Positions 1-35,315 of a stretch of 64,000 nt of DNA are shown piece by piece. Within the stretch, counting starts at the first letter, position 1, and the number at the start of each line of letters is the position of its first letter. The notes under the pieces were generated by a model. It saw nothing but the letters and a program-made list of their open reading frames with translations. It did not search any database and was not told the origin of the DNA. A program made the translations under genes and the position numbers. Source of the stretch: Gossypium raimondii (taxonomy: Eukaryota > Streptophyta > Magnoliopsida > Malvales > Malvaceae); NCBI RefSeq assembly GCF_025698545.1, contig NC_068576.1, positions 1,805,501 to 1,869,500 of the forward strand, read 5' to 3'.

Positions 1-1645
1 GGCAGATAAACATTGTAATTGTCCTGAGCTTTGTGATCTTTTTCCTGGGTTTGGAACTGACTTTTTTCTCCTCAGTTTTATGGAGTGTGACAGATGGAAG
101 TTGGATAATCTTGGTTTTTGCTGTGATAATGTTTCTCATTATGTATATCTGGAATTATGGTAGCAAGCTTAAGTATGAAACTGAAGTAAAGCAAAAGCTC
201 TCAATGGATTTGATGCGAGAATTGGGCTGCAATCTTGGGACAATTAGAGCTCCTGGCATTGGTTTGGTTTACAATGAGCTGGCAAAAGGAGTACCAGCTA
301 TATTTGGCCATTTTCTAACTACACTCCCTGCAATCCACTCCATGATCATCTTTGTCTGCATAAAGTATGTCCCTGTTCCTATGGTGCCTCAGAGTGAAAG
401 ATTCCTGTTCAGGCGAGTCTGCCCTAAGAGTTACCATATCTTTCGTTGCATTGCCAGGTAAGATGCTCTGGCTGGAAACCCCAAACCTGTTATCTTGCCT
501 AACCCAGTTCCTTTTTGTGTTAGTTGGGATTTATCATCATTTCAGGTTCAATCTTTGAAGTGCAATATTTATCATAGAAACTAACTAGCATGGTAAAAAA
601 GAGATAAATCTCAAAATTATACGAGAACTCTAGTCCAATGTGCAATGTGATAGGTGAACTTTGATTTTGTGCAATTGTATACATAAAAATTGTGATTTTA
701 TTCAATTTTTTACAAACCACTAACTATGTGATTGATGTAACATCACTTTATGTTTACATATTACATAAACAATTGCATTATCCCACATGAAAATAAATGG
801 ATATATTTATTTTTCTAAATTCATACAATTGTATCAAAATCAAAGTTTTAATTGTATGATTGAACCAAAATCAAAATTTTACATGTACAATTGCATCAAA
901 TCAAAGTTTAGGTATCACATTTCGTATTAGATTAAAGTTAAGGTGTAAATTTGAGACTTATCCCTCGTTAAAATGCCACCTTGACTGGAAGTTGTCAATA
1001 TTAAACTGGCAATAAAATCGGAAAAGTAGATTATATATTACTATGCGTGCAATTCCTTCCTTTTTTTCATTTTTCTTCAGCCTTATCCCTTTCTCCATTC
1101 TCAGGTATGGTTATAAGGATGTCCGTAAAGAAAATCACCAGACATTTGAGCAGCTGCTGATCGAGAGTATTGAGAAGTTCATTCGTCGAGAAGCTCAGGA
1201 AAGGCAATTGGAAAGTGATGGCGATGAAGACACTGATAATGAAGAGGATACCTCTCTCTCAAGGGTTCTCATAGCTCCCAATGGAAGTGTTTACTCACTT
1301 GCTGTTCCACTGTTGGCTGAGTTCGGGAGCTCTAGTAATAATCCCATTTCTGAAGCAAGCACCTCAGAGGAGGTGACGGCAGATTTGCCTGTAGATCCAT
1401 CAATTTCTGATGCGGAGCATGGTTTAGAGAGGGAGCTATCGTTCATACGCAAAGCTAAGGAATCTGGAGTTGTTTATCTTCTTGGTCATGGAGATATTAG
1501 GGCAAGAAAGGATTCCTGGTTTATTAAGAAACTAGTTATCAATTACTTCTATGCTTTCTTGAGAAAAAATTGCAGGAGGGGCATTGCAAATTTGAGTGTG
1601 CCCCATTCGCATCTCATGCAGGTTGGCATGACTTACATGGTTTGA
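1..1645 (+). CDS. KUP7: Potassium transporter, KUP/HAK/KT family, KUP7-like (3' part; two exons seen)
   Basis: Partial gene; its 5' part lies outside the window. Coding exons are 1-457 and 1105-1645 (stop TAA-type codon ends at 1645). The donor after the CAG at 457 and the acceptor at 1103-1104 join in phase to give ARYGYKDVRKE. The protein is a K+ uptake permease, expected in the plasma or tonoplast membrane. Exon 1 encodes the last hydrophobic segments (QINIVIVLSF, SWIILVFAVIMFLIMYIW) and the cytosolic GCNLGTIRAPGIGL region. Exon 2 encodes the long hydrophilic tail, with an acidic ESDGDEDTDNEED stretch, and the family-typical end VPHSHLMQVGMTYMV. The tail has the serine-rich insert and ERELSFI..AKESGVVYLLGHGD block of the KUP7/KUP12 branch. 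Gene order supports KUP7 rather than KUP12. No break is seen in the visible part. Confidence 0.93.
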
Positions 1646-3542
1646 TGGTACATTTTTGCAAACCAAAATAAGGTGCATAATTTTTCTCACTTTGAAAAGA
1701 ACGGTTCCACAAAGGAAGATGAACATTCAGAAAGGGCCTATCTTTTCAGCTTATCTCTGATCGAAGCTGCATCGTGGAGCTCAAGTCAACTGCTAACAGT
1801 AAGTCTTAAACCTTTCTCTTGATAACGCCGGCCCCTTGAATCTGCAAATTTGTTATGGAATACTGTTTGTTTTCATTTTGTTTTGCTGATTAGGAAGTTT
1901 TGTAACGATTCTGGAGTTGCCTTTCCTTTTCCTGTATTGGTTTTTTCTCTGTTAGAAGCTGGTTCATATCAAATTAAATCTTGTTGTAATTATTGGGGCA
2001 GATATTTTAATTTTAACTTTTTCCGTTAAGTGAATAGATATTTTGGTCAAATCTTAATATATATAAAAAATTGAGTTAAAAAATTACTTGTTATTTTAAC
2101 TCTACATGCCAACGGTGTTGTAGTTTTTTCTAGAAATTATTATGGTAATGGTATTTATTAAGGATCTGGTTATCAGTTAAGAAATAATAAAAAATTTGTA
2201 CTGAATTAGAAAGGCATTAATTATTATTTTTGAACGTAAAGAATGCATTAATTATGATCTTTGTATATAGACATCATATTAACTAGTGTGGATTAGTTCA
2301 CCTTTTTCCTTACTAGAATTTTATATTTTGAGAAAAAAGTTTTAGAAAAATGGATATATGTTATTTAGAATAATATTCATGTATTTTTGGAGTGAATTGA
2401 TATTTTGTTGTGCAAAAATATATTATATTAATTGTAGGAAGAAATAATTACTCGTATTTCTAAAAGAACAGGTACATTTTAAAGGGAAAGAAAAGGTACA
2501 ATTTAAAAATGTAAAAAGTATATTGAATAATTGGTTATGTTTTATTTCTTAGTTATTTAATAAACATTAAAAGATTATTATTATTGTGATTTTAGTTTAG
2601 GTTCAAAAGTAAGAGTTGGTGTGATATCAAATTAAGTAGAGAGTTTGATAACAGTAAGATAAGTACTGTGTTATGTTTTTTTTTAAGGCTTGAGGATTGA
2701 GAAGGGATTAACACCCTTTGATTTAGATGGTGGACAATGACAGAATCCTCTCCGATAGGGCATCAACCCATCATAATGGGTCATGGTTTCTGTCCTACCA
2801 TGGGCACAAACAATGTTTACAGAGTACCCTCCTCCTTACCACCTTTTCTTTTTTTCATTTTATGAAAATTTGTTAAATTCTAATTTTGGTACTTTTAATA
2901 TGCTTCATTTTGAGATCTAATCTTTATACTTTAATTTGGTCTCTATGTTTTTATAATTTTATTAATTAATTCAAATTCTTAGCTTTTTAATTTAAATATT
3001 ATGTGGTTATATGTATTTGAAAGCAAATTTTTTAATTCCATAAAGTTGAGAAATTAAATTTTTGAAAATAAAAGTTGGAGTACTTAATTTCAAATGTATG
3101 AAGTGTAGAGACTTAAAATCATGGTTATTTGAACTGGTCGAACCATTCGAGGTGCCAGTCCGAAGAAATGCATCAGATTGGTTGACTTGCGAACTAGTAC
3201 ATGCTTGTAGAACTAGACTAAAAAATCAATTGATCCGATTTTTTATTTTTAAAAATATTTTTATTTTTATGTTTCTAATGATTCATTTAATCTAATAATA
3301 CGAACTAGTAGTTTGACCAGCTCAACTGCTATTTTAATTCTAAAAATTTTGCTTAGAGTATATTTAATTTTCAAATTTTTATTATATAATTTCATTCAAA
3401 TAAATAATTAATCTAGCACGGGTAAATAAACCATATTAGTAATAAAACTAAACTAAGGTAGGAGCAAATAAGGACGCAGAAATTCAATAATAAAGGACTA
3501 AAAGTGGTAGAGTTGCTAAAATACCTTTTCAAATTCAGATAG
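1646..3542. other. 3' flank of KUP7 and AT-rich intergenic DNA
   Basis: The first 150 bases probably belong to the KUP7 3' UTR; a possible donor (CAGTAAGTC) near 1799-1806 could mark a 3'-UTR intron. Beyond about 2000 the DNA is AT-rich with no coding signal. A more GC-balanced patch at 2690-2850 contains ACCCATCATAATGGGT (imperfect dyad) but I could not assign it to a gene or element. Confidence 0.5.
3110..3345. repeat. Dispersed repeat rich in GGTCGAACC/GACCAG motifs (copy 1)
   Basis: This segment shares a run of motifs with 63460-63680 in the same order: a GGTCGAACC motif, a GATTGGTTGACT-type block, ACTAGTAC/ACTGGTAC, CAATTGAT, a T-rich stretch, then TTCTAATGATTCATTTAAT and a GGTCGAACC/GTTTGACCAG block. 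The two copies are diverged. I infer a medium-copy non-coding family; no terminal repeats or target duplication could be fixed. Confidence 0.5.
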
Positions 3543-4472
3543 GTAGGTTACCGGCTTTTCTTATAAAACTAACCTAAAAAAACAATTAAATACTTAAATA
3601 ACCTTTTTTTTTTCTATAAAATACGAAAATAACGTAAAATCTATAGTAAAAGTTGGTGGAGACAAAGTGTTTAGTGCCACCAACATGCCACGTCAGCAAT
3701 CTGTATAAAAAAATTAATTGCTTGGTGGAGCCATGTAGAATGGTGCCACTAGTATAAATATTAAAGAAATATTGCGATTTTTAAAAAAAATGAGAGAGCT
3801 TTAAACAATTTTACATTTTTCTAGTGGAGCCAAATAATTTGGCGCTTTCAACACCCTAACCTAATCTGCTGCCTATTCAAACAACCTGAATTTTTTTTTC
3901 ATTCGTTGCTTTTTCTGATTCTTTCTTTCATTTCTTTGTCCTTTTTTTATATTTTGTTTTTCTTTATTTACTTTTTCAGTTTTTTTATCCTTTATTTGCT
4001 TTATTTATTTGTTTATTATTGGCTTTATAATATTTTAAATATTTTAAATATTGTTTTTTAAAATTTAAATATATATTTTAAAAATTTAAACATATTTTAA
4101 TATTATAAAACATTTAAAATATATTATTTTTAAATATATAACCTTTCAAATTTATTATTTGTTTTATAAAATTTTTAATGTATATTTTAAAATTTTAAAA
4201 TTATTTTAAAGATATTCAAACGTTTTTTAAACTATATTTAAAATTTTTAAAAATAGTATTTTATTTGGTGGATTCATTTAGAATGACTCCATTTAGAATG
4301 GCTCCACCACTTTATTACAAGTGTAATTTTTTTAAAATATGTTTTTTTAATATAAAATTTTAAATTTTAATATTTTATTTTGGAGCCAATAAGAATGACT
4401 TCACCTCTTGGTTCTCTAGTATATATAGAATGGTGAAGTTGTTGTATTTAGTAGGAGAGTTCAAAAATTCTG

Positions 4473-5430
4473 TTGAAGATGAATAACGAGGTGTTTTTGG
4501 TGTACGTTCTTTTTTATGGTGAAATTGTTGAAGGTGATGTTAGTTGTGTATTTCAAGGTCGGCAAAGAGTAGGGTTGCGATTCAAAAAAAATGTGAAGCT
4601 GGCAGAAATGAAAAGGAAGATTAGTGTGAAAATAGCTATCTGTTGTGGAAGGGCGATGTCCAGATTATTTTACAAGTTTCTAATCTCTACATATCCATTG
4701 AAATTTTGTGAGATGCAACTATTAGATGATGATGACTTGGACACTATGGTGGTCGACTGGAAGTGAGAACTCTCAACCAGTTGAGTTACTTGCTGAGTTA
4801 GAGGACATAAAGCCTGTTGAGAATGTTAGTCCAATGAGTCAACATCGCGAATTTGACTTTAATCTTAATGCCGGATGGACAGACCAGTTAGAATGCGAAG
4901 AGACATCGCAGATACCCGAAAATCCAAATTATGGTGGGAGTTCGTATAACAACTCTACCCTCGATCCCAATCTACAAATACTTCGGAAGTGATAATAAAC
5001 ACAGAGGCAAACATCGGGGAAAGGACCAATAATGGTGAAGATTCTGATCAGGACGTTGAAGATTTTAGTGACCCCAATGTTGATGAAGTTCTAGACGATA
5101 TTGATGATGAAGTCCCGAAGGAGGTTGAAGATGTTCACGGCCCTTCATTCAATAACTGGAGTCGTGGCATTGTTTTACGAAATGAACCTGGGGGCGACAT
5201 GTTGAACGTAAATCCAGATGCAACGCATGCATCCGAGTTCCCTAGGTACGCCGATATAGTACCTGCTCATAGATTGGCATCAAATCCGTAGTTGGAGGAG
5301 GAGTTGTTCGTTGGGAAACAGTTTGAGAACAAGACAAACTGTGTGTTTGTCATCAAACAGTACAACATGAAGTTGTTGATTGATTACAAGGTTGCCAAGT
5401 CTACACCGACATTAACAGTTAAACTTGATA
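4473..5430 (+). pseudogene. MULE transposase gene, N-terminal part only (PB1-like and MuDR N-terminal domain)
   Basis: The reading frame begins MKMNNEVFLVYVLFYGEIVEG and has the basic stretch KKNVKLAEMKRKIS and the ISTYPLKFCEMQLLDDDDLDTMV ending seen in the leading PB1-like domain of plant MULE transposases. It continues, with frame changes near 4760 and 4985, through an acidic linker (EDSDQDVEDFSDPNVDEVLDD) to a MuDR-type segment at about 5290-5430 (LEEELFVGKQFENKTNCVFVIKQYNMKLLIDYKV), after a stop near 5290. The zinc-ribbon, DDE catalytic core and SWIM finger that normally follow are missing; sequence switches directly to the oppositely oriented plant-mobile-domain segment. I see at least three breaks, so no transposase can be made. 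Confidence 0.8.
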
Positions 5431-5506
5431 AAATATTATCCACACTTATGAGTCGTTAAATGTTAAGTATAAATTTGTTTTTACCTATTTACAAGTGGCC
5501 ACGATT

Positions 5507-6180
5507 ATGGTTGGTGCCTAACAGCCGCTAGAAACGGCATCCTATATAGAGCCCAGGATTGCAACAGACCCAGGCAACCAGCCATTTTACTAACCCCATG
5601 TTTTGTTGCTCGGCAAAGCTCACGGTACAATATGGCCAACACTGCTGATCCCTAGCTGTAAGTACCGGCACGAGAGAAATCATCCAATAGAGGCAAGTAC
5701 TTTAAATGGACCCTATTAGACGTGTTGTCTGGCATAAGTACCCCCGATCAACTGCATAATATAGGTTCGAGCAGCACACATCACCTCGTGCTCAGTGACG
5801 GTGCTCGATAACTCCTTAAAATTTGCTCTCAAACATGCCAATGTCAAGCATGTGAAATTCTGTTCCCTATCACTAGGGGCCCGTCGAAGCAATCTGTGGC
5901 ATAGTACTGAAGGTTCCAACACTTTGCTTCGGCCCGTGACCACAACACCTTCAACTCGTAACCCAAGTTGCATAGCGCATCTTCCAATGTGATAGTTCAC
6001 TCCCCGCATGGCATAATAAAGGTGTAGGTCTCCGTACACCACCGCTCAACCAAGGCGGATATTAAGTTCACCATTAGGTTAAACATTAGGATCAATGCGA
6101 CGTCCCCAAATCTCGCCAACTGTAAGTATGACATGATTCGCTAGTCCAGATCGTACTTGGGAAAATGAAACCGCGACCTC
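5507..6180 (-). pseudogene. Plant mobile domain (PMD, MAIN-like) remnant inside the MULE
   Basis: Read on the minus strand, pieces in several frames match the plant mobile domain in the expected order: SYLQLARFGDVALI, NLISALVERW, ETYTFIMPCGECTITLEDA, MQLGLRVEGVVVTG, ARTYIMQLIGG, LPLLDDFS, SAVLATLYRELCRATKHG, and MAGCLGLLQSWALYRMPFLAAVRHQP near 5510. PMD proteins are host genes and also frequent passengers of MULEs and some retroelements. This copy has several frame changes and stops, so it is a decayed passenger. It lies tail-to-tail with the truncated transposase segment; the two are about 75 bp apart. Confidence 0.8.
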
Positions 6181-6184
6181 AAAA

Positions 6185-7433
6185 CCCGATACTCATCCTG
6201 TATGGTAAAATTTTTATAAAAATATGATAAATCAATTATCTATATAATTTAAACATAAAATTATATATTGAAAAGTAAAACTAAAAGGTTGAGAAAACAA
6301 AAACATCACATTTATACTATACCAATGTAGTCATTCTAAGTATTTTTTATTTAATTTAAATTAAATGAGTAATAAAATATTAATAATAGAATAAAGATTT
6401 GTCATAAAATATCAATAATAACACGTAGAGATCAAATGTGATTATTATGTACTAATCATAGTTAAGCATTAAAACAAAAGGCAACCATATAACTACAAAA
6501 AGTACATAAAAAACGATAATGTTCTAAAAAACATAGGTGGTATGGGTAAATATAAAATAAAAGACTTATTTTCATTGAATCGATATCGATAATAATACAT
6601 AGAATTTTACATATAATATAAATTAGGCATATTCAAACTCGAAAATTTATTTTACATGCGAGAACTTTTATAAAATTAAGCGTAAATATCGTCATATTAA
6701 AAAATTAATATATAAATTTATGAATGTGTCACAAATTAAAAAAATTATAACTAACACATAGAGATCAATTTCATGCAAACATGAGTTAAAAGGGATAATA
6801 ACAACTAAATAGAGATCAGTTTTACACAATCAAAACACGTTGAGCAAAGTAGCGCTTAGTAAGAAAAAACGAGAAACTAAAACATTTTTTATTTAATTTA
6901 TAATCAATTTTACTGTTTCGTTGATACTTGATGAAGTGTGATCCGTATTTACTCCGTAAAATATTTTGATATATGTATAATTTAAAAAATTATATAAATT
7001 AAATATAATTAATTATTATATTACAATAACTATAAAATACAAAATACAAACTATAAATAACTTACTAGTTTTTATTTTTCCTTTCTTCCTTCTTTTTTTA
7101 AAATATTTGACGGGGAGACCAAAACCTCACATTATTAAATAAGACGTTCTTCTTCTCTTTTTTTTTTTAACTAACAATTATTAGGCTAATGACTAGTTAC
7201 ATCGCTGATGTCACTGTCACGATGTGACTAGCCATAATATATAATTTTAATTTTTAATATACATATATTTTAAAAAGTCATAGTTTTTAACAAATAAATC
7301 CTTTTTATTTTTTTCCAATCAATTCAATTTTCACTTTTTTATCATTTTTTCAATTTTTTGGTCCTTATTTTTTTATTTCTATTAAAAGTGTCTCTTTAAT
7401 TTTCTTAATTTCACATTACATAAATTATTTATA
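6185..7433. other. AT-rich interior of the MULE, no gene seen
   Basis: Very AT-rich sequence between the PMD remnant and the right terminal region. Neither strand carries an open frame with recognisable homology. Confidence 0.5.
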
Positions 7434-7545
7434 GGCTTTTTTTATAAAACTAACCTAAAAAATTAATTACATAAATTACCTATTTTTGATAAAATACGTA
7501 AATAACTTAAAATCTACAATAATTATATAAATATACATAAAATAT
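7434..7545 (+). repeat. Extra copy of the MULE end, in left-end orientation
   Basis: GGCTTTTTTTATAAAACTAACC at 7434 and the following 90 bases repeat the outer left end (3553 onward): AATTAATTACATAAATTACC, TTGATAAAATACGTAAATAAC, TTAAAATCTACA. It faces the right terminus at 8203, so 7434-8203 resembles a small deletion derivative of the same family. The bases left of 7434 (AATTATTTATA) do not match those right of 8203, so this end does not pair with 8203 as a separate insertion. Confidence 0.6.
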
Positions 7546-8207
7546 TATAAAAATAAAAAATAAACAAATAAATAAACAAATAAAGGACAAATAAATAAAA
7601 TATTATTTTTAAAATTTTAAATATAATTTAAAAATGTTTGAATATCTTTAAAAGAAATTTTAAAAATAATAATTTAAAAATATATATTTAAATTTTTTAA
7701 AAATAATTTTAAAAATTATATTTAAATTAAAAAATGATTTTTAAAAATTATATTTAAATTAAGGACAAATAAAAGAAACTGAAATAGTAAATAAAGAAAA
7801 ACAAAATAAAAAAATGAAAGAAAGAAATAGAAAAAGCAACGAATGAAAAAAAGTAAAAAACATTCAGGCTGTTTGAATAGGCAACAGAATAGGCTAGGGT
7901 GTTGGAATCAGGTGGCGTTAAATTATTTGTATCCATTAGAAAAAGGTAAAATTTTTTAAAGCCCTCTATTTTTTCAAAAATTACAGTATTTTTTTAGTAT
8001 TTATACAAGTGGCGCCATTCTATATGGCTCCACCAAAAAAATAATTTTTTATGTAAATTGCTAACATGGCATATTGGTGGCGCCAAACACTTTGGCTTCA
8101 CCAATTTTTACTGTAGATTTTAGATTATTTTTGTATTTTATCAAAAAAATAAATCATTTAAGTAATTAATTATTTTTGAGGGTTAATTTTATAAAAAAAA
8201 GCCGTAG

Positions 8208-8984: not shown

Positions 8985-10146
8985 ATAGTATATCTATATT
9001 GAGCAAAGATATCATTCCCACGAAGACTAAAAATACTAGTAATTACTGTCTTTCTATTATTTATTCGATAAATTCAAGTGATTGATGAAAAACTAAAATT
9101 AACTAAATTAATTAACTAACAAACACGGCAAAAAACAAAACATGAAAATAACCAATTAACAACCAAGAAACAAAGCGATGCCCAAGAAATAATTCACCTA
9201 GACTTCACCTATCACTATCAACCTAAATTACACAATTTATTTAATTAGTAACTTGATCTGTAAAAATGCCTAAATTAGGCTAATATCTCTTTCGATAGTA
9301 AGGGCAATTGACTCTAGGTTGATTAATTGAAATTTCTTTCTAATTAAAACCTCTATTATTGCATTAACTCGTGCTATGGATTCCCTATTAGATTTGACTA
9401 TAATCCTGTAGATTTATGTTGTCCTAGTTCTAGGATTGCATGCAACTCCACTCAATTACGCAAGACATACTCTTAAACAGAGTCTATTCCTCCTCTCATT
9501 TAAGCACACCAAACATGTATCAATAACCTAGAAATATCAAACCAAGAATTAAGCACACATTATTGAGAATAAGAAACTAAGTATTTATCGCATAAAATAA
9601 AAATCAAACGACAGAATCCATCATAGGGTTTATCTCCCCTAGACATTTAGAAAATTAGTTCATGCTTGCAAATAAAAACAACTAAGAGACAGGATAATCG
9701 AAAGAAACAAAAAAACTCATGATATTCTTCTAAGAAATCAATTGGGAATCTTCAATCTTGACGGAAATCCGCTTTAGAATTGACTTCAATTTTATTTTTC
9801 GAGTTGTTTTCTTGAATATTTTATGACGGCTCACTCTCATCTTCTTATTTTTGTGATATATAAGCCTTAGAATGCCCGAAAAACCTAAAAACACAATTTC
9901 TTGCAATTTAGGGTGCAAATTCACGAAATCGACACGGCCTACCAAATAGTCGTGTGGTCTGCCCGTGTGGCCCCCATAGCTTGCTCTGATTTTCCATTTT
10001 TACTCCTTTTGCTTCAAAATGCTCTATTAAGCATAAAAACATGAATTTAAAGGATTATGAACATTAAAATCACAATTAACATCGAATAATCACCCAAAAA
10101 CGCATTAAGAATGAAGTTGAAACATATTACTTTTAACACTTATCAT
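8985..10146 (-). mobile_element. LTR-type fossil, probably a Ty3/gypsy solo LTR (minus orientation)
   Basis: On the minus strand it starts TGATAAGTGTTAAAAGTAAT and ends with a block containing TCGTGGGAATGATATCTTTG, the kind of stretch common near the 3' end of plant gypsy LTRs. Inside are a CACGGGCAGACC / GGCCGTGTCGATTTCGTG segment and a leader-like AT-rich body. No internal protein region adjoins it on either side, so it looks like a solo LTR. Exact ends, and a 5-bp target duplication, could not be fixed, suggesting an older insertion. Confidence 0.6.
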
Positions 10147-10356
10147 AGGTAGTGCATTAATCTGCATAATATAGTACTTAATAAATTAACCTATATGAGT
10201 GTGAAATGGAGTTGCTTTTATAAGATTTATGGAAAAGTCTTTAAAGCACTCATGAAAATTTTATGTTTCATCATTTATTCCGTAAATTATGTCTCATTCT
10301 TTCTTGTTATAGTATATAGTCCAAAAGACACTAGAGTCGATGTGTTATATCTAAAT

Positions 10357-10503
10357 AGAAGGGTCAAGGTGTAATACACTTAGCGGTTGCACTTGCTTAT
10401 GATCAGGCAATAAAACTGACTGTTACTGCTGGAGTTAGTATAAATTTTTGTGATGCTAATGGATGGACAACAATGCATTGGGCTGCTTTCTGTGGCAAGC
10501 AAG
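10357..10503 (+). pseudogene. CAMTA (calmodulin-binding transcription activator) relic, ankyrin-repeat segment
   Basis: One frame of about 49 codons reads KGQGVIHLAVALAYDQAIKL, then TVTAGVSINFCDANGWTTMH and WAAFCGKQG. This is the ankyrin region of CAMTA factors (family form: GQGVLHLAAALGYDWAI, GVSINFRDVNGWTALHWAAFCGRE). CAMTAs bind DNA with a CG-1 domain and calmodulin with IQ motifs; none of these was found nearby. Homology stops after about 10503 and the frame soon meets a stop, so this is a fragment. Its place between the KUP7 and OM64 genes is where Arabidopsis carries CAMTA1 (At5g09410), so I read it as the in-place remnant of that gene. Confidence 0.82.
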
Positions 10504-12172
10504 GACTCTATAAACTTACTCTTATCATTTGTGGTATATGCAAGCATCATTTTTTTGCTACATATGGAGACATCGACTCTCTTTTGGATGCTGATGCTTT
10601 CATGTCTATCGCATTTGAATAAGATCTCCTGCCAACTTTTCCCCTGCATGTCCTACCCCAAAAAAGTCCGGCAACATCTTTGCAGCATTATGGATGCGGT
10701 AACTTCATTTTGTCTGTAAATATAATATCTAACAATTTTAGGGTCTAAGGTATTGTGCTTGTTTCTAGGTAACGCAGAAAAAGTGTTTCTTTTCGGGTTT
10801 AATAGTTTCTAATATCCCAAATTCTTAACTAAAGGGTTAGAGTAGTACTTATTGCTTGCTGAGTTTGTTGGATAAAATTATTTGTAGAGTAAAAATAAGT
10901 GAGTTAAATGAGTTCACTTTCATAGCGGGGCCAATTGTTGTGGTTATAACTTAGATATTTCGTGGAATATGAATACATTAATTCATTGTGTGTAGACCTT
11001 ATAATCCATATTTTTATATTGAATTTTGTGTTATTTTCATGTTCTATAAATTTTGATAAATAATAATGTGATATAAGTTTTACTAATTAGCATGTTCATG
11101 TTGTCTAGGTGTGATTTTTTAGTTTCATGTTTTTTTTTGGGGGGGGGGGTGGGGGGATTAGACTTGATTGGTAGGCTCAATTAAACTCAACAAGATGTTC
11201 CAAAAAATCGATAAGAGATTTCCCAACTTAGTGCTTCTTTTAAAGGTGTGCTTGGTTGGATAGAAAAATGAAGGTATGGGAGGAGGAAGTAGAAAAGTGA
11301 AAACAAAATAAATTTTAAGTATGTTTGATTGGGAAGAAGAGTGAGAAGAAGAAAAATAGGAGGATGACCACTTTTCATCCTAATGCATAAAAACCGACCT
11401 TTTCAAATTGGAATGATGAAACAAGAGAAAATGAGAGAGGCGTGTTATGCATTTTTCAGATGTTTTTTCTTCTTTCATTCAATTTTTTATCTCTACCAAG
11501 TAATGAATGGAAAGAAAATGTAAAGTGACAAGATCTAATACCAATTGAAGTTTGTAAAAGATTGCTAAGATAAAAGTTACACATTATAAAGGAGTGACTA
11601 GAGAGTGGGCATTACTCTTTCACCATTGGAAGTAAAAACATTAAACAAGCAGAAGACTCAAGAGTTATTTACGCAGTTCTGTTTTCCTATGTCTGCGGAG
11701 CTTAGTTTAGTGAAAAATATTCATTATCTTCAACACTTAAAACAAATTATTATAATTTATCGCACACCAGTGGCAATTTCCTTACATTTACACTTGTAAA
11801 TTCAACAAATAAAACCACAATAGACAAGTTTTTACAACCAATATGCATCCGTAAAATACTGTTTAATAAATTGTCAACATCTCAAATATGAAAATTGTCT
11901 AATATAGCTCCAATAACACTCAATTAATTGTTTAATAATTTTCAATATATTCTCAAGTTACCCAATCTCAATTCTCTTTGCCAATTTTTCCATACTGTCT
12001 TTGATTAGTGATTTAGTTAACTTTTGCAAGATCATGATCTAGTTTAGTGGTAACTTTGATTTGATATCAGATTTTGTGTTTAGTGTTACTTTTATGTGCA
12101 TAAATTATATATCAGTTCACCCGACTTTCCCAGGATTATGACTATACTTACTGTGTATTATAACAAATTGCA
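10504..12172. other. Intergenic DNA between two gene relics; contains a T/G homopolymer
   Basis: No gene recognised. At about 11131-11156 a run of T is followed directly by 11 G, one T and more G, an unusual strand-asymmetric tract. The segment 11210-11470 is purine-rich on the plus strand (GAAGAAGAG-type) and could be part of a miniature element starting near GTGTGCTTGGTTGGAT, but no ends were fixed. Confidence 0.45.
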
Positions 12173-12847
12173 GGAGGAGTTTTGGACCAATACCATCAGG
12201 TCCATCTCTAAAGCTTACGAGAAGACAGGCCAGGAAATTCTCTTACACATTCCTGACCCGGGAGGACAAGCTATAGAAATGAGAATCGATCATGCGCCCA
12301 ACACCGAGCGCGGAAGCATCGAGAACAGAGGTGGCTTTGTCTCCAACATGTCATGTTAATCGACAACTATTTTCTGCTTATGTCTAATTTTCTCTTTAAA
12401 GACCATACTCTCCTGCATAACTGAATGGAAGTGAACAAGGACGGTATTGTGGCTGTCAATGTGTATGCGTCACGGTCTACACCCGTGGTAAAGTTCGAGC
12501 ATGTGAAATATGCATATGACCAGCTACATCTTATATGCTTTCAAATGTAGTTTATACATCTTATATGACTTAACATGAGACGTAGCAAGAGTGAATGACC
12601 AATTTGATGACAAGAACATTAAATCACACCTCCAATGCTGATATCGACTCAGATACCCAACTTCTCATCCTTGCAAGTTACGGTCCATGGACATGTTTAT
12701 TTTCTTTTTGCTCATGCCGAATCCATTCTAATGCAAGCCATGTCCGATCAAGAAGCAGTTGATATTGCGAAAAAGACCAAGGATGAAGGATCCATAGAGA
12801 GTGGCATAATAGTTAGCGAACAAGGCACTGAACTGAGTAAGGACTGA
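12173..12847 (+). pseudogene. PP2C-type protein phosphatase relic (clade of Arabidopsis PP2C58)
   Basis: Three blocks match this PP2C group in order. Block 1 (12173-12355), after an acceptor-like TTGCAG, reads EEFWTNTIRSISKAYEKTGQ, then EILLHIPDPGGQAIEMRIDH and APNTERGSIENRGGFVSNM. It lacks about 35 residues (the TAVTAI...VGDSRAVL region) between PDPG and GQAI. Block 2 (about 12601-12632) reads FDDKNIKSHLQ. Block 3 (12642-12847) reads [15 protein letters not shown] and, after a frame change, QAMSDQEAVDIAKKTKDEGS, in place of LILASDGLWKV..QEAVDIA. The metal-binding Asp of ASDG is Tyr here. Intron-like spacing and the acceptor argue for a duplicated genomic copy rather than a reverse-transcribed one. 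It cannot encode an active phosphatase. Confidence 0.85.
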
Positions 12848-13669
12848 GGACAATATCTCCTGTAATGTATTTCGTTTCAAGGGGTAAAATCAAAACTGGA
12901 ATATAATCCAAAAACATACCCCAGACTGCATAATATAAAAGAATCAAAGGGAAACATGATGGTGAAAATTCCTCGTAATCTTATCTGATTTAATACACAT
13001 AGTCCTATTATAAAATAAAAACATAAATTTCAAAATTTATTTTTATTTAATTCTAATAAATATTTTAAATTATATTTTATCAAAACTATTTTACAAAAGT
13101 TTACAAATATAATTATATCTATATCGAATAGTTTTTGTGTTATTTATTTTGGATATAATTATATTTTTAAATTTGTAAATTTTCTATAACCCAATTTTTC
13201 TAAAATTAAATTATTTAAGTAAATTGAATTCTAAAATGTTAGCATTTTAAAATTTTCAAAATTTCAAACTCTTCGCTTCAAATGTTACGGATCAAGAATA
13301 GTTCCATTTAATTAATTTATTTCTATGGGATGTTGATAGCAAGATAAATTTGTATTTTTAATATATTTATTTTTGACTAATTATCAAACAAAATGCTATT
13401 AAATTTTGATTTTTCTTATCAGGAATGAAGTTGGTGTGCTGAATTCAAACTCTTACAAAAAGGGGCTAAATTGAAACAAAAAACAAAGAGGAGGGCTTGA
13501 TTGAAAGATTGAAGATTCAAGGATATCTCGGTAAAGAAAAAGTGACTGGATAAAGATCGACAGATTTTTTTATATTGTTACAACTCTCTAATTAGTTTAA
13601 ATTTGATTTTTAAATTTTGAATTATTTAGTGATAACATTTAGGAAAAAATCTAACTAAATTTTAGCACT
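12848..13669. other. AT-rich intergenic DNA, no gene seen
   Basis: The stretch between the PP2C relic and the PIF/Harbinger element shows no recognisable coding or repeat structure. Confidence 0.5.
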
Positions 13670-15931: not shown

Positions 15932-17316
15932 CTAATTTCTAGATGCTTGCCATTCATCGAACATTTGGTTGGCTAGTTCCATCCTCCAAGTAGCCCAAAC
16001 ATCCGATGGATGAATATTTGTTATATTCAGTTCATCGTCATCCACCACATTAGTAGGTAATCCTTCTCCCACCTCCGCTTCAATGGGATCAATACTCATA
16101 TGGGTTCGAATAAAATTATGGAGCAAACAACATGCAATAATAATTCTATTGTGCACCCTTACAGGATAAAACGATGGACTCCTAAGTATTCCCCATCTAA
16201 GTTTTAATAAGCCAAAGCATCTTTCAATGACATTACGTCTTGAGGCATGTTTCATATTAAAAACTCTTGCGGAGAACTTGGCTGATAACCCTGACGCCAC
16301 TCGTTCAGATGATATCGCTGTCCTCTAAATGGTGCAAAAAAAACCCTCACAATTTGTGTATCCAGCATCAACTAGATAATAACAACCTATAAAATAAATT
16401 GGCTAAAAATGATTAATTCAAGCAAACAAAGTTTGATCTTAATGAATAATTCAAATTCCTCTAACTATACACTTTGTACCATGAGGAACTTTTAGTCCAT
16501 GTCTTCTACTAATTGCATCTCAAGCACCCGTCCATCGAATCGAACCTTCCCAACCAGGAAGAACATAAACAAATTGCATCTCGGTGTACAAACACCTAGC
16601 ATATTTGTTGCTATGTCACCTTTTCAAAAGCGATATCTAGGTTTATCAACTGTTGGCACCCTAATCTTGATGTTGGTTCCATCAAGAGCACCTAAGCAAT
16701 TCTATATCACATGATATAGAACATTGAGTTAGAACACTATGATTAATCATATTAGTCAACTAAATATTGTACAAGCTATATATAAAACTCGCCTAATACC
16801 TTAAACCATTTCCACCTTGTGTCGGAAGAATCACCAGAATCGGGTCCGCTTTTAAATAAGACATCTTGTAAGCGTATGACAAGATTTAAAACATTATGAA
16901 ATGCTCGCTTACGCTTCCCGGACCTCCTAAAGTGATGCTTGATAACTCGATTTTTAGGTGATGGGAGATGATATGTAAAACATTGCTACTTGCTCATCAA
17001 CAAGCATGAACCTTGACGACTTCAATCCCCTATCGATTCTAACATCTCACATAGTTTAAAAAAGGCACTCTATTCATCTGACTTGTTCAATACAAGTCTC
17101 GTCACTAGCATATACAAGCCTCTTCACATAATCCCGTTGTGCATAAAAATCTACGGTATAGGACCTAATCCTTGGTCTATAAGTATGTAGGCTAAGGCTG
17201 GCACCCATTCTAAATAAGAACCAAATCGCGATTCTACAGATTTCCAACCAAATTGTCAATGCAGCACCGATTATTTTACGCCTCACACTTTGTACAATTA
17301 AAGGCAGACGAGCCAT
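15932..17316 (-). pseudogene. PIF/Harbinger transposase (HARBI1-like, DDE_4 nuclease)
   Basis: Three minus-strand exons: about 17316-16800, 16697-16481 and 16386-15932. Exon 1 carries the N-terminal helical part (SDETCIEQVRMNRVPFFKLCEML). Exon 2 carries CLGALDGTNIKIRVP, with the first catalytic Asp, then DIATNMLGVC and VYVLPGWEGS. Exon 3 carries YYLVDAGYTNCEGF, with the second catalytic Asp, then MKHASRRNVIERCFGLLKLR, with the third acidic residue, and RIIIACCLLHNFIRTHMSID; it ends WQASRN. These are the hallmarks of the family's nuclease, which cuts at TAA/TTA targets. There are several stops and frame shifts (in exon 2 around YRF-stop-KGD and near the end of exon 2, and in exon 3 around GYTNCEGF), so the copy is broken. 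The gap between exons 1 and 2 is 102 bp. Confidence 0.88.
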
Positions 17317-23640: not shown

Positions 23641-23713
23641 TGTCCCAAGTCAAACCCACCTTTGACGTCTTCCCCGCTTCTCTGGATTGGAGAGCTTCTC
23701 TTGGAATCCGATA

Positions 23714-26700
23714 ATGTCAAAAACCATTAATCTAATAAAAGCCAACGCTTCTAACCCTAAGGTTTGGATTGTGGCGGGAATTACAGTGGCCGGAATCCTA
23801 CTTCTGGCTGACACCACTAGAAGGAGGAGGAGGAAAGCTATCATCATCCAAAGACAAGATTTTGGCGCTTTCTTGGAACGCTTCGACTTAATCCCTTTCC
23901 CCCAGCCGCCAACTCCTCCCGCCAAACTTCCATTACAAGGTCTTACATTTGCCATCAAGGACATGTTCGTCATTCCACATCCTTTCTCTTTCTCCCTTGC
24001 TATACTTTTGTTATAATTTTGGTTTTCCCTTTCAATCTTTTTCTTTCTTTCTTTTAATGATTGCAACAGATTTGATGTAAAAGGTTACGTAACGGGGTTT
24101 GGGAATCCCGATTGGCGTAGAACACATGAGCCGTCTGATAAGATGGCGCTGGTGCTTACTGCTTTGTTGCAAAACGGTGCTAAATGTGTGGGCAAGACAG
24201 TCATGGACGAACTGGCTTTTGGGTAACCTTTTATTTGGATTACTAGGAAGAAAGTTGTTATGAAGAAGAGCTGGAGCAACATAGATTGATTTCCCAAATG
24301 TGACAATTCTTGCTTTTGTTTTCCAATTATTAGAATAACGGGGGAAAATAAGCATTATGGAACACCTATAAATCCCAAAGTGCAGTCAAATATTCCAGGA
24401 GGTTCTTCAAGTGGTTCTGCTGTGGCGGTTGCAGCTGAATTTGTGGACTTTGCTCTAGGTAATTTCTTCACTCCCTTACATTGCCAGTACTCAATAGTCA
24501 GTCAAATCCCCACAGCTCTTTCCCTGTTTGTTATGCTTTTCTTTTGTTTTGTGCATGATTAATTAGTTTCTAGCCTTGAATGGCATAGCTTATCTTTTCC
24601 ATTCCCTTCCTAAAAGCCTTCGCAGACCCTTTTTTACTGAATCTTGTTGATATACAGTTTGTCTTCTTCTTACTGTTATCTTAGCATAGAAGGCTTTTTC
24701 ATCACATTGCAGGTACTGATACAATTGGCTGCATTAGACTTCCGGCATCCTTCTGTGGTATTCTTGGCTTCCGTCCATCTCATCAAGCTGTATCTACTAT
24801 TGGGCTTATTCCAAATTCCCAAAGTTTGGATACTATTGGTATTGTAATGTGGCCTTCTTGTTCAGATTGTTAAGATGTTCTAATTGTGCAGTGTGGCCAT
24901 GGTATTTTGATCCTTGAGATGTTTGTTGAATCTACTCGTAGATAATAGCTGTTGATAGTTTTAGCTAGTCTGAATTATATAATTATGTGAATTCATTTTG
25001 TATTCACCTAAATATATTATTTCTTAACTAAAATGTGGTGCAACTGAATGTCTGATCTATTAGTGAATGGATGCTGCCTCCGGAAAAGGAGCAGACAACT
25101 TTGCCCCTCTAGGTTTGTGGCACATGTCATTGCTGTTCTATCATAAGAATGGGCTGTTCAAATAATCAATGGGTATTTATTTGTTTGAGTCTAATTTATT
25201 GCTTAGCATTAAACTTTTGGAGAGTTTGCTTTGCCTTCCTCTAGATTTCCTTTGCTTCTCTTGATTTCGTCAAATGTTGATTTTAAAGGATGGTTTGCTC
25301 GTGATCCATCTGTTCTACGCCGTGTTGGACATGTTCTACTTAAAGTAAAAGCAGTGGAACCTAAAAGGGAAAGGCGCCTTGTGTTTGCTGATGATCTATT
25401 CCAGCTTTCAAAGGTTACCAAGCAGAAGACAGTTTATGTTGTTAGCAAAGCAATAGAAAAGCTTTCTGGTTGTAAGTTGTATGGCCTTCAATTTTTATTT
25501 ATATCAGTTGCATGTTTTTTGGGTCTCAAAATCATGATCCTAACTCGGTGCTACCACTTCTGTTATGATGCTGTAAGTTTTACTTAATGATTTGTCTACC
25601 TCTTGTTGATTGCACAGACCAGCCTCCCCAGCATATTAATTTTTCTCAGTATGTTGCTTCAAATGTGCCCAGTCTAAAAGCTTTTGGTCAAAATTCCTCA
25701 AACCTGCAATATGGAATTTCTGCTTTGAAAGCTCTTTCATCAGTGATGGTGTCATTGCAAAGGTACTTGAGAATAATGTGTTACACGCAGGAGTACATAT
25801 ACCTCTTCGACCTGCTTTTATTGTTGCAATCCCTAAATCAAGATATAGTCATTATTAATATCAATTCTTGGCTTTGTCCACTTACCAGTTCTAATATCTA
25901 GCAGTATTACTTTTCAGCTATGAGTTCAAAACAAACCATGAGGAATGGGTTAAAAATGTTAAACCAAGACTAGGACCTGAGATTTCTCATCGTGTTCTTG
26001 CAGCAATCAACACTAAATATGAGAACGTGAAAGTTTTGTACAAAGTCGGGACAGAAATGCGCGCTGCTCTGCAAAGTCTTCTTAAGGTGTGGTTGCTTCT
26101 TCTCCTTCCTCTTTTCTTTCTGCTTCCATTTGTTTCAACTAATGTGATAAGTTTTTGTACCATTTGTTACTGTTATTCTTTTCTATAAGAGTGTTCACTA
26201 TATACCAAGGATTATGAAGTCTCCCTGGTCATTGCTATAATACATTTGTTACAATATACCAATGAAGTTGTCTCCAGGCAGTTCTGTGCTTCATTTTTAA
26301 TCAAAGAGAGAAGCAAACTGTAGTGTCTTATTAGCAAACTTTAGCTTTTTTTTTATCTGAGACATGATTATTGGTTTTTGGTTCCAGAACACCGATCATA
26401 TTTCAAAGGGCATGCAAGATAAACTGTTCTTTTCATAGTAAACTTTTTTTTATGTTTACACTGTATAACTGAGACACGTTTAATAATAACAATCTTGTTA
26501 GAGGTGCCTGGAAAGGAGACATTGGGCAGATGGGATATTATCTATGATTAATCTAATTGAGAAAAAATGCTAAGAATGTCGGGGGCTTATCATCAGTATC
26601 TACGAAGGTGCCTACCTCTGCTGAATTTAGGGTTATTTTTATGGATCCAAAGGTTCTCAGATTTCTGGTGTTGTCTTGAATTGCTATAGTCTACGATGTT

Positions 26701-27174
26701 AGAATGGCTTTGAACTGGATGAACTCAGATAACCAGGTCATCTTTTTTGTTTCAGGATGATGGAATATTAGTGATTCCCACAATTGTGGACCCTCCACCA
26801 AAGCTTAATTCAATGAAAGATTATTCCACTGAGTTTCATGATAGAGCCTGTGCAGTATTGAGCATTGCTAGCATGTCAGGGGGCTGTCAGGTGACTTACA
26901 ATGTTACTAGGGTTAAGTTGTCATTCTTATTTGTTGTAGCTTGGATATCAATAATTCATTTGACCGTAGAATCTCTTCCTAGGCTTGTGTTCCATTAGGA
27001 AATGATGCTGGTTGTCCTGTTTCTGTTTCGTTTGTCTCGTGCCATGGAGCAGACAAATTTCTTCTTGATGCAGTTTTGGATATGTATGCATCTCTGCAAG
27101 ACCAAGTCAGCAATGCATTCAAGTCCGCGCTATTGTCTGATGTCAATGGTAATATGGATGCTTCTCAATGGTGA
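23714..27174 (+). CDS. OM64: Outer membrane protein OM64-like (amidase-like), ending before the TPR domain
   Basis: Nine exons: 23714-23964, 24070-24222, 24334-24458, 24713-24838, 25289-25471, 25618-25762, 25918-26086, 26756-26890, 26983-27174; every junction keeps phase and gives 492 residues. The start [20 protein letters not shown] with a hydrophobic anchor ([13 protein letters not shown], residues 19-31) followed by RRRRRK matches mitochondrial OM64 of plants, a relative of chloroplast Toc64. The amidase-like domain follows (AIKD around residue 82; GGSSSGSA near 158-164; GTDTIGCIR near 177-185). OM64/Toc64 proteins normally end with three TPRs that dock Hsp70/Hsp90-bound preproteins. Here the frame meets TGA at 27172 right after NGNMDASQW; one missing base in CAATGGTGAAGG relative to the family (Q-V-V/M-K-E-K) would explain it. 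No TPR coding sequence was found downstream, so the copy is C-terminally truncated. The donor of exon 1 (CAT|GTTCG) is weak. Confidence 0.88.
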
Positions 27175-27182
27175 AGGAAAAG

Positions 27183-28935
27183 GTCTGCCTTGCAATATCT
27201 TAATTGATTTTTCTAACAAAATCTATATGTCTATGTGAATGACATCCCTGATTTTATTAGTTGACGGGTGTCAGTGATTCCCACAAATCCAAAATGAAGT
27301 TTTAGTTTTGCCTATTTGTATTCTTTATCTCGTAATAGTATATTGTTTTACTAAATGGCATATTACTTGACAAGTAAAAAGTAGGAAGGACGAGTTCCTT
27401 TTGGGTTATACGGAGTTCAATTATTGCTGTGATGTGAATGACATGTAGATCTTGAAAAGATGCCATTAACTTGATCTGCGCTATAAAATTGCAGAACTGA
27501 GCTACAGGAAAAGAAACTATTTCATATCCAAATTGCTAGTCAAACAAGGAGGAGAAGCGACCAGATATTGAAAAGAATGGGATTGCAAGAATGACACATA
27601 AGAAAGAAATTTGCTAACTTATTTCTTAAACATGCCAATCATGTCTTAGCTAAGGGGAAATCTTCACTATATGAAAACCTTGGGTTTTAAGCATATCTGC
27701 GGGTCATCTCCAACTGATGGATTCAGACGCCTATCTTCAGCGCTGAGCCCTCCCAAATCCCAATAGAACGCCAAGAGTTGGTTATGGGGTAACTGGTCAA
27801 ACCGAGGTCAATTTTTTTTCCTTTCATTTTATTTTACTTTAGAAAATTAGGTGTAAAGGTTGAACACAGATGACATATGGATGTCTTGTATAAATTTGAT
27901 TTTCCTTTCTATCATTTCCTAATGGAACACAATTTAAAGAGGAATAAACAGACCTTATCTTCTTCATAAGGCCATGCACATAAGCCCATTTTTAAGTTTT
28001 GATTAGTGCAATAATTTGACCTTCAACTACTCTTTATTGGGAGTATAAATGCTCCTTTTATAGAGAAAAGAAAGAAAATTTTGCCTCTTCTAGGCTAGTC
28101 AAATTCTTACTAGAATATACGGCCATTGTTGTTACTTCATTGAGAGTTCTAGATTAGAGGTGATTCAAGATTTGCTTACTTTGGTTTGTGAGTGATTCAA
28201 AGGAATCGAGAACTACTATTATAAGTAGATCCTATTTTATTCTCTTCTATTCTTTTAATATCTTAAGTAGGATTCAAGAAAAATTTTATATTTTTTCCTT
28301 TCCATTTTCTGATTTTTATTCTTGAATTCCAAGACAAAGACATGAATGGGTTAAATGATATAAGAATCTTCCTTTTCTAATTTTAATTTAAGTTTTAAAA
28401 AACACCTAATAAGAATATAAATATCTTTATATTTATACACATTTTGCTTTACCCTTTTTTAATTTTATTGATAGAGTTGATGTTTGATTAATTTTACGAC
28501 ATTAAATATAGTCAAACAATAGATACAACTAGATCACAGTACTCCCATGATGCAAGTGAAAAATTATACAATAAATATATTTATTAACCCACTGAGTAAA
28601 AAAGTTTATGTGAAAAATATATTTATTAAAAAAAGAAATTATAGTTAAAATTGTAAAGTTGAGATGTTGAAAACCAAGTTGCCTTAACTTCAAATTGTTG
28701 GATTCAGTGCTCTTAGTAAAATATTTTAATCAATATGTATATTTGTATTTTTTGAATAAATTGATTTAATAAAATATCAATTAATTACGTTAATAATATT
28801 TGAATATTATTCTTAATGGTTTTTGCATGCAAAGTAAAATGGAAGCATTATTATGTGGTCGAATCATAATACAGAAAGATAACTTATATTAGTAGATAAT
28901 CTAAACACGTCATTAGTCTAATCGGAAATGAGTAG
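27183..28935. other. Downstream flank of OM64, no TPR exons or other gene seen
   Basis: I searched by eye for the usual TPR coding blocks (GNAAYK, NRAAAYLEL, CTKA, YLRRGTAR) in all frames and saw none. An acceptor-like TTGCAG stands near 27495, followed by ordinary-composition sequence to about 27810 that may be an untranslated or decayed exon. The rest is AT-rich. Confidence 0.5.
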
Positions 28936-29099
28936 ATGTTTTGTCCAATTGTAAGACTAATATGTCGTCTATAAGTTCAATTGGGTAGATATTTGTTTTG
29001 AGCATCATTCCACAATGGGAGAATATGTAACCCAACTAAAGGGTAAAATATATCCTTTTATTGGCAGTATATAATAGGTGAAAAATAAACGTGGTTGCG

Positions 29100-29800
29100 G
29101 GTAATGTAGTCGGTTCCACACCTGTTCAAATTGCACCTGTCAGTGCACACCTTTCCGGTTATAAATCGGAATGACTACTCTTTTCGCACCGGTGTAAATT
29201 CTGGTCTGTACCGGTTGCACCGGCTTGTTACGGCTAATGTCGGTTACACTGACCGGTGCATGAATAATGTTAAAAATAGATAAAATTACCATTTTTTATT
29301 AATCAATTTTAAATTTTAACAAAAATAAAGGAGAACTTTAAAATTTTAAGTAAATAATTAATGAATAATAAAAAGTAAATAATTTATATAACAAACAAAC
29401 TAAAGAAAAAAAAGTCTAAATGCTTCACGAACACAACATTTTATGTATGTTCTTTTGTTAAACTTTCATTTTATATATTTAATGTGGGATGATCTTATTA
29501 TAATTTTAAAAAAATATATTGCGGATAATTTTGTTATTTAATGAGATGTTTTTTCTTTGTTTACTTTAAATTTGTTAAATGATGAAATTTTATTTGCGAA
29601 GTTATGGATAAATATTTTATATAATCGATTAATATTTTTATATTTGAAATTATTTAATCTAATCCATTTGATGTATTTAATATTTTTTTAAAATCAATAA
29701 ATTCGAAACGGTACACCGAAATAGACTGGTACTATTATGTACCAATTCTAGTAGAAAAACAGTGCACCCACGAGTGTGGTACTGACTACCTTGATCACGG
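29100..29800. mobile_element. Miniature inverted-repeat element with ACCGG-rich ends, about 0.7 kb
   Basis: The left end (GTAGTCGGTTCCACAC, about 29105-29120) is an imperfect inverted match to the right end (reverse complement GTAGTCAGTACCACAC, about 29774-29789), followed on each side by GTGCACC-type blocks. CACCGGTG/TACCGGTTG units cluster at the left. The interior is AT-rich and non-coding. The flanks GCGGGTAAT and ACGGGTCAT may be a decayed 9-bp target duplication, but this is not secure. Confidence 0.55.
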
Positions 29801-34592: not shown

Positions 34593-35315
34593 ACGATATG
34601 TACAAAATGTTGTAGCAATAGCATTCCCAACCTTCAATATTTTTCAATGTATGGTTATATACCATGTACATTAAATGAATGTTGTAGCATTCCTAAAAAT
34701 TACGTGAACATTGAAAAACAGGTTACTATAGTATTAAATATGCTGAATAACATGCCATTGTCAAAATGGGAAAAACATAATGTAATTAGTCGCACACAGT
34801 TTACAACTAGGAGAATATCTGTTGACAATCTATGTTATCCATAAATTGACATGGAAATGAATCAGATACAACATTTGGTGTAACTTTTTAACTTTAATAG
34901 ACAACTTAGAAGATATGGTTTTTGTTTGTTTGTTTGTTTACGCAGAATCAAGCGAGCCACCTCTGGCAACAGAGCGAAAAGCGAAAATCGCGCATGTATG
35001 GAATCTTGTTGGACTCTCCTATCCTCTCAGCAAACCAATATGCTCCTCTTAATTTGTGGCAAAGATTTTCTAGCCATTCTTGTCTTTCCCCCTACGTAAC
35101 TGATCTTTGTTTCGGGACGCTAATGTAACTTGGCGATTTTCACGCTTCATTTTTGTCAAATTTATTTACCCCCAAAATATATGCTACAACAAATTTTGAA
35201 AGCTGAATTTGTCATCTGGATTCAATATGGAACAACATCATCGAACTCAACACCAGGAAATTTGAAATTTCGTTTGATTTTTTTTTTTTTTTTTTTTTGC
35301 AATTAGAAGAACACA
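34593..35315. other. Upstream flank of the alpha/beta-hydrolase gene, with a long T-tract
   Basis: No gene recognised. An almost pure T-run of about 23 bases (about 35277-35299) lies just upstream of the start codon at 35316, probably in the 5' UTR or core promoter. Confidence 0.5.

Follow-up and report, generated by a model that had tools for sequence, protein, structure and literature searches.

In maize fractionation, direct repeats of 3–24 bp lie at 10 of 16 gaps, according to the accessible part of one study (Woodhouse et al. 2010, PMC2893956). A durian and cotton study reports an uncorrected Ks of about 0.52 for the cotton decaploidy, with each cacao region corresponding to five in cotton, and dates the event to 13–14 million years, where earlier work had placed it at about 59 (PMC6324235). 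For the CAMTA family, the table of Pant et al. (2018, PMC5882909) lists seven Gossypium raimondii genes, and the accessible text names CAMTA4 for G. arboreum. In Arabidopsis, the excerpts available describe At5g09400 as HAK/KT7 (PMC6073294), At5g09410 as AtSR2 (PMC3292969) and At5g09420 as TOC64-V (PMC12586335). We analyzed a window of 64,000 nucleotides from G. raimondii (contig C12, positions 1805501–1869500) against the whole genome (750,779,957 bases in 281 contigs). The window carries the relic of a CAMTA gene, which is a further instance of a known process, the decay of a spare gene after an ancient genome multiplication.

The first piece of the relic spans positions 10357–10542 of the window on the plus strand and comprises the end of an ankyrin exon (to 10498) and the start of the following intron. 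Its CAMTA reading frame starts at 10359 and translates as KGQGVIHLAVALAYDQAIKLTVTAGVSINFCDANGWTTMHWAAFCGK, in which the last codon is split by the exon boundary at 10498. Of the ankyrin region, 46 codons plus two bases survive. When compared with its own genome, the fragment matched, well above chance level, C13:6529576 on the minus strand (E 1.7e-21, 82% at the amino-acid level) and C3:59251965 on the plus strand (E 1.3e-19, 76%), among nine places with E≤0.01, the relic itself included. At the DNA level and E≤0.001, the relic matched only itself, C13 and C3 in the whole genome, with 88.8% identity to C13 over 161 columns and 81% to C3 over 186. The similarity continues beyond the exon into the intron, up to 10517 with C13 and 10542 with C3. 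Pfam detected generic ankyrin signals in the 49-residue piece, all slightly below the curated cut-off (the best, Ank_4, at 22.5 versus 22.7 bits), and a PDB search with the fragment returned ankyrin proteins of a generic kind. The CAMTA label therefore rests on the genome comparison, which confirms that 10359–10498 is part of a CAMTA1/2-type ankyrin exon. The first-pass annotation had recognized a 49-codon CAMTA ankyrin stretch here; the identity holds, but the frame begins at 10359 and not at 10357. The intron after this exon appears to start with GC instead of GT in the C3 gene, the C13 gene and the relic (window 10499–10500).

A second piece lies at 10569–10878 on the plus strand and consists of the last coding stretch with its stop codon (10569–10622), followed by 3'UTR, in which similarity covers about 10700–10878. 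It is 91% identical to C3 over 54 columns and 73% over 200, and 66% identical to C13 over 323. Aligned at the DNA level to the 100 kb surrounding each of the C13 and C3 genes, the two pieces keep the gene order and orientation. Thus the loss of a CAMTA gene, as originally proposed, stands, but two pieces remain instead of one exon piece. Relative to the C3 gene, about 1.5 kb is missing between the pieces and about 5.9 kb upstream, the latter counted from the first C13-conserved frame.

Neither DNA nor protein comparison gave a convincing trace of other CAMTA exons at 1.6–10.4 kb of the window. The DNA search of this interval against the C3 and C13 genes (E≤0.05) yielded four weak matches of 32–93 nt with E values of 0.001–0.034, two of them on the wrong strand. 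The protein search (E≤0.01), which covered the window and 10 kb upstream, yielded 15 matches; seven are the relic and eight are weak, 10–30 residues long, with two of these eight inside 1.6–10.4 kb, and comparison stretches on C4 and C5 produced 8 and 11 similarly weak matches. Two further DNA matches to the C3 block, at 3055–3118 and 3210–3287, fall beyond the limits of its CAMTA gene and are presumed to be repeats. As for the domains of a functional CAMTA, CG-1 has weak short matches only within 1.6–10.4 kb, and the ankyrin repeats are reduced to a fragment below the Pfam cut-off. The IQ and calmodulin-binding region matched nothing at 10542–10569 or in the rest of the interval. As regards TIG, Pfam reports none in the C3 frames, and the part of the gene that precedes the ankyrin sequence is unmatched here. 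These C3 frames do contain CG-1 (26.8 and 39.2 bits, cut-off 23.5), Ank_4 (23 bits, cut-off 22.7) and a signal for IQ (20.1 bits, cut-off 20.3); the C3 gene looks complete, and the C13 gene is conserved with it along its length.

Seven of the eight other genome places agree in strand and approximate position with the seven genes tabled in PMC5882909, with contig numbers here mostly differing from the chromosome numbers there. The C13 copy fits GrCAMTA2.1 (Gorai.013G061100; 6.53 Mb minus here versus Chr13 6.63 Mb minus), the C3 copy fits GrCAMTA2.2 (Gorai.005G220600; 59.25 Mb plus versus Chr05 60.34 Mb plus), and C12:21.36 Mb on the minus strand fits GrCAMTA3.1 on Chr08. The relic has the ankyrin exon, intron start, C-terminal end and 3'UTR in common with the C13 and C3 copies, but the CG-1, IQ and calmodulin-binding parts of GrCAMTA2.1 and GrCAMTA2.2 were not found in it. 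It is absent from the seven listed genes, none of which lies near 1.8 Mb of Chr08 in the table, and it accounts for one CAMTA copy missing from the published cotton list. The accessible text of PMC5882909 does not use the word pseudogene. Among the papers listed on CAMTA in Gossypium raimondii and on CAMTA pseudogenes in cotton, titles and abstract openings do not report the relic, and a literature search for CAMTA with fractionation in Malvaceae found nothing. Another CAMTA locus, C5:34852918, has no positional counterpart among the seven genes in that table. In a tree built on 141 nt from eight of the nine places (C9 left out), the relic groups with C13 (support 80 and 85), and this pair is joined with C3 at a support of only 60 and 67.

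Upstream of the relic is the C-terminal exon of a KUP7-like K+ transporter (1016–1642, plus strand; Pfam K_trans_C 35.3 bits, cut-off 24.8), a gene that starts upstream of the window and has its best paralogue at C4:3883980 (86% at the amino-acid level over residues 26–209). Downstream, a PP2C relic at 12000–12896 on the plus strand, with exon sequence missing and an internal deletion, matches C4 and positions 85509–83128 of the C3 block, where the PP2C exon scores 57.3 bits with Pfam PP2C. It is followed on the same strand by an OM64/TOC64-V-like amidase gene at 23666–27184 (Pfam Amidase on one exon, 44.4 bits; the C3 copy is 78% identical over 103 residues) and an alpha/beta-hydrolase exon at 35307–35987 (Pfam Abhydrolase_1 62.5 bits, cut-off 25.8). 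The order in the window is thus KUP7-like, CAMTA relic, PP2C relic, OM64-like and alpha/beta-hydrolase. The order given in the first-pass annotation (KUP7, relic, OM64, hydrolase) is present, but a PP2C gene also belongs to it. If AtSR2 is taken to be CAMTA1 and TOC64-V to be OM64, three of the four Arabidopsis neighbors cited there (At5g09400, At5g09410 and At5g09420) also fit, by gene name only. None of four TPR pieces matched anywhere in the window, where the amidase control did match, and the C3 block has TPR exons; the OM64-like gene (window 23666–29500), seemingly devoid of them, may be another decaying gene.

Comparison with the homoeologous regions of the same genome, which had been suggested as a check, revealed collinearity with two blocks. 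The C3 block has CAMTA on the plus strand, then OM64 and PP2C on the minus strand, which is the gene set of the window with one inversion. The C4 block has KUP7 and then PP2C in the expected order and direction, and in the 20 kb compared no CAMTA match lies between them except weak, control-like ones. On the evidence of these alignments, the C3 and C4 blocks each preserve part of the order KUP7, CAMTA, PP2C and OM64-like, C3 with its inversion, and the gene sets retained in the blocks are complementary, as fractionation would give. The 100-kb C13 block shows no match to the KUP7, PP2C or OM64 of the window; it is linked to the others through CAMTA and a distant flank shared with C3. An apparent similarity of window 56.8–58.4 kb to C13 showed short frames only. 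At C5:18793411–18798703, a PP2C gene and an alpha/beta-hydrolase, arranged as in the window, are separated by about 5 kb and possibly mark a further homoeologous block; no CAMTA was found there within the 7 kb followed.

To gauge the age of these duplications, exon frames were matched to one another with tblastn, with no use of gene models, and Ks was obtained by simple counting; alignments shorter than 40 residues or below 55% identity (20 residues and 40% for the PP2C relic) were left out. Ks was 0.418 for CAMTA C3/C13 (1057 codons), 0.475 for KUP7 C12/C4 (969 codons) and 0.459 for OM64 C12/C3 (652 codons). The relic itself gave 0.358 with C13 and 0.409 with C3 over 64 codons, and 0.212 and 0.475, respectively, on the 47 ankyrin codons alone. 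The range of 0.36–0.48 for the CAMTA, KUP7 and OM64 pairs fits one shared polyploidy, set beside the uncorrected value of about 0.52 published for the decaploidy (PMC6324235). The PP2C values are higher, 0.897 for C3/C4 (349 codons), 0.623 for relic/C3 (101 codons) and 1.279 for relic/C4 (96 codons), and with Ks of 0.62–1.28 not every pair therefore fits one event.

Nucleotide changes confined to one lineage, defined as sites at which the other two copies agree (sites differing in all three were left out), were counted over 64 codons. Those of the relic fall on codon positions 1, 2 and 3 in numbers of 5, 6 and 4, and 11 of the 15 change the amino acid. The corresponding numbers are 1, 1 and 7 for C13, with three of nine changing the amino acid, and 2, 1 and 8 for C3, with four of 11. 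Across all 35 changes, Fisher's exact test gave P = 0.007 for positions 1 and 2 versus 3, and P = 0.041 for amino-acid change. Judged by these codon counts, the relic is free of protein constraint. A crude three-lineage Poisson fit placed 47% of the time since the split in the unconstrained state, with an interval of 9–100% that is too wide for use as a time of death. The missing bias among codon positions also bears on the idea that a short reading frame at 10359–10619 is still used. Both pieces happen to be in the same frame, which gives 87 open codons, but a stop codon immediately precedes them and translation from the first in-frame ATG would yield 49 residues; continued use is therefore very unlikely, and the relic most likely does nothing now.

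The 5' boundary of the relic was defined by comparing both partners of the join with their relatives. Immediately upstream, a dispersed repeat is represented by a truncated fragment at 10146–10362 on the plus strand, which matches 42 other pieces in the genome and shares its last bases with CAMTA. CAMTA similarity begins at 10357 in both C3 and C13, and repeat similarity stops at 10361–10362 in the four copies compared, so that 5–6 bases are shared between repeat and CAMTA. Both CAMTA genes carry the complete six-base motif of the join, AGAAGG. Among the four repeat copies, one has it in full, another has its first five bases, and each of the remaining two departs from it by one or two bases. 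The four copies stay alike well past the join in all six pairwise comparisons. Because the repeat copies resemble each other well beyond this point, both partners must be truncated at it, and a repeat cut off at the join argues for a deletion scar and not a transposon end.

This structure is relevant to the possibility that a transposon picked up part of CAMTA at another locus, the C13 gene, and carried it to this place. The closest copy does lie on another chromosome (89% at the DNA level, with tree support of 80 and 85 for relic plus C13), and a repeat touches the 5' side of the relic. Closeness to a distant CAMTA locus and flanking transposon ends had been named in the first-pass annotation as signs against its reading. 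These signs are present on the surface, yet the adjoining repeat breaks off where it meets CAMTA. Downstream of the relic, the first repeat, among the best 40 of 560 candidates and with very common words skipped, begins at about 11235, about 360 bp past the 3'UTR similarity. Moreover, the two pieces derive from different parts of a single gene and keep their order, and they sit where the C3 and C4 blocks predict the gene to be. We consider capture improbable. A processed, retrotransposed CAMTA copy could explain the inclusion of the gene's 3' end and 3'UTR, but the ankyrin exon is followed by intron sequence, which contradicts retrotransposition, and the position is syntenic; this origin is extremely improbable. 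Loss of a CAMTA gene in place, by deletion after the cotton decaploidy, is very probably the correct reading. Loss in place after polyploidy, as first suggested, is supported by the collinearity with two blocks, the Ks of three gene pairs, the lost codon constraint and the deletion junction.

In the course of events that loss in place would imply, the slot held a CAMTA1/2-type gene, one of several homoeologous copies from the ancient decaploidy, which would be the duplicating event. This copy would have lost its function and then been whittled down by deletions, one of which presumably fused the dispersed repeat to the ankyrin exon via the 5–6 shared bases and left nothing recognizable of the gene upstream. 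Another loss would have removed the following exons, including the calmodulin-binding part, while the tail and 3'UTR stayed. We infer both the number of these steps and the microhomology-type recombination behind them. A CAMTA2-type role would now be carried by the C13 and C3 copies, and the relic leaves the knowledge of CAMTA function unchanged. As in maize fractionation, a gene appears to have been deleted at its site, with short shared sequence at one breakpoint, the 5' join; however, the maize gaps in the accessible text measure 5–178 bp (PMC2893956), compared with losses of about 1.5 kb internally and about 5.9 kb upstream in the cotton relic. It is possible, though rather doubtful, that the loss of cotton homoeologues proceeded mainly through multi-kilobase deletions with an anchor in inserted repeats, unlike the very short deletions of maize. 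In that case, one end of a several-kilobase deletion would have lain in a repeat that had inserted into CAMTA or close to it, and the neighboring PP2C decayed beside it. The locus offers a clear worked example of the loss of a redundant regulatory gene, as a single genome displays the retained copies, the neighbors on two further chromosomes, the scar of a deletion and the lost codon constraint.

Other repeats occupy the region around the relic. A dispersed element with long inverted ends (3553–8204; arms at, for example, 3846–3960 and 7793–7907) is probably MULE-like, judging by its shape; among the best 40 of 6183 candidates, its matches elsewhere have their limits at about 3553 and about 8204. 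Positions 9001–10145 form the right-hand part of a high-copy, presumably LTR-like element that ends at about 10145, as 36 of 42 other matches end at 10143–10152 (query 1143–1152; best 40 of 2654 candidates). On the minus strand, 15932–16321 contains a DDE_Tnp_4 transposase remnant (40.5 bits).
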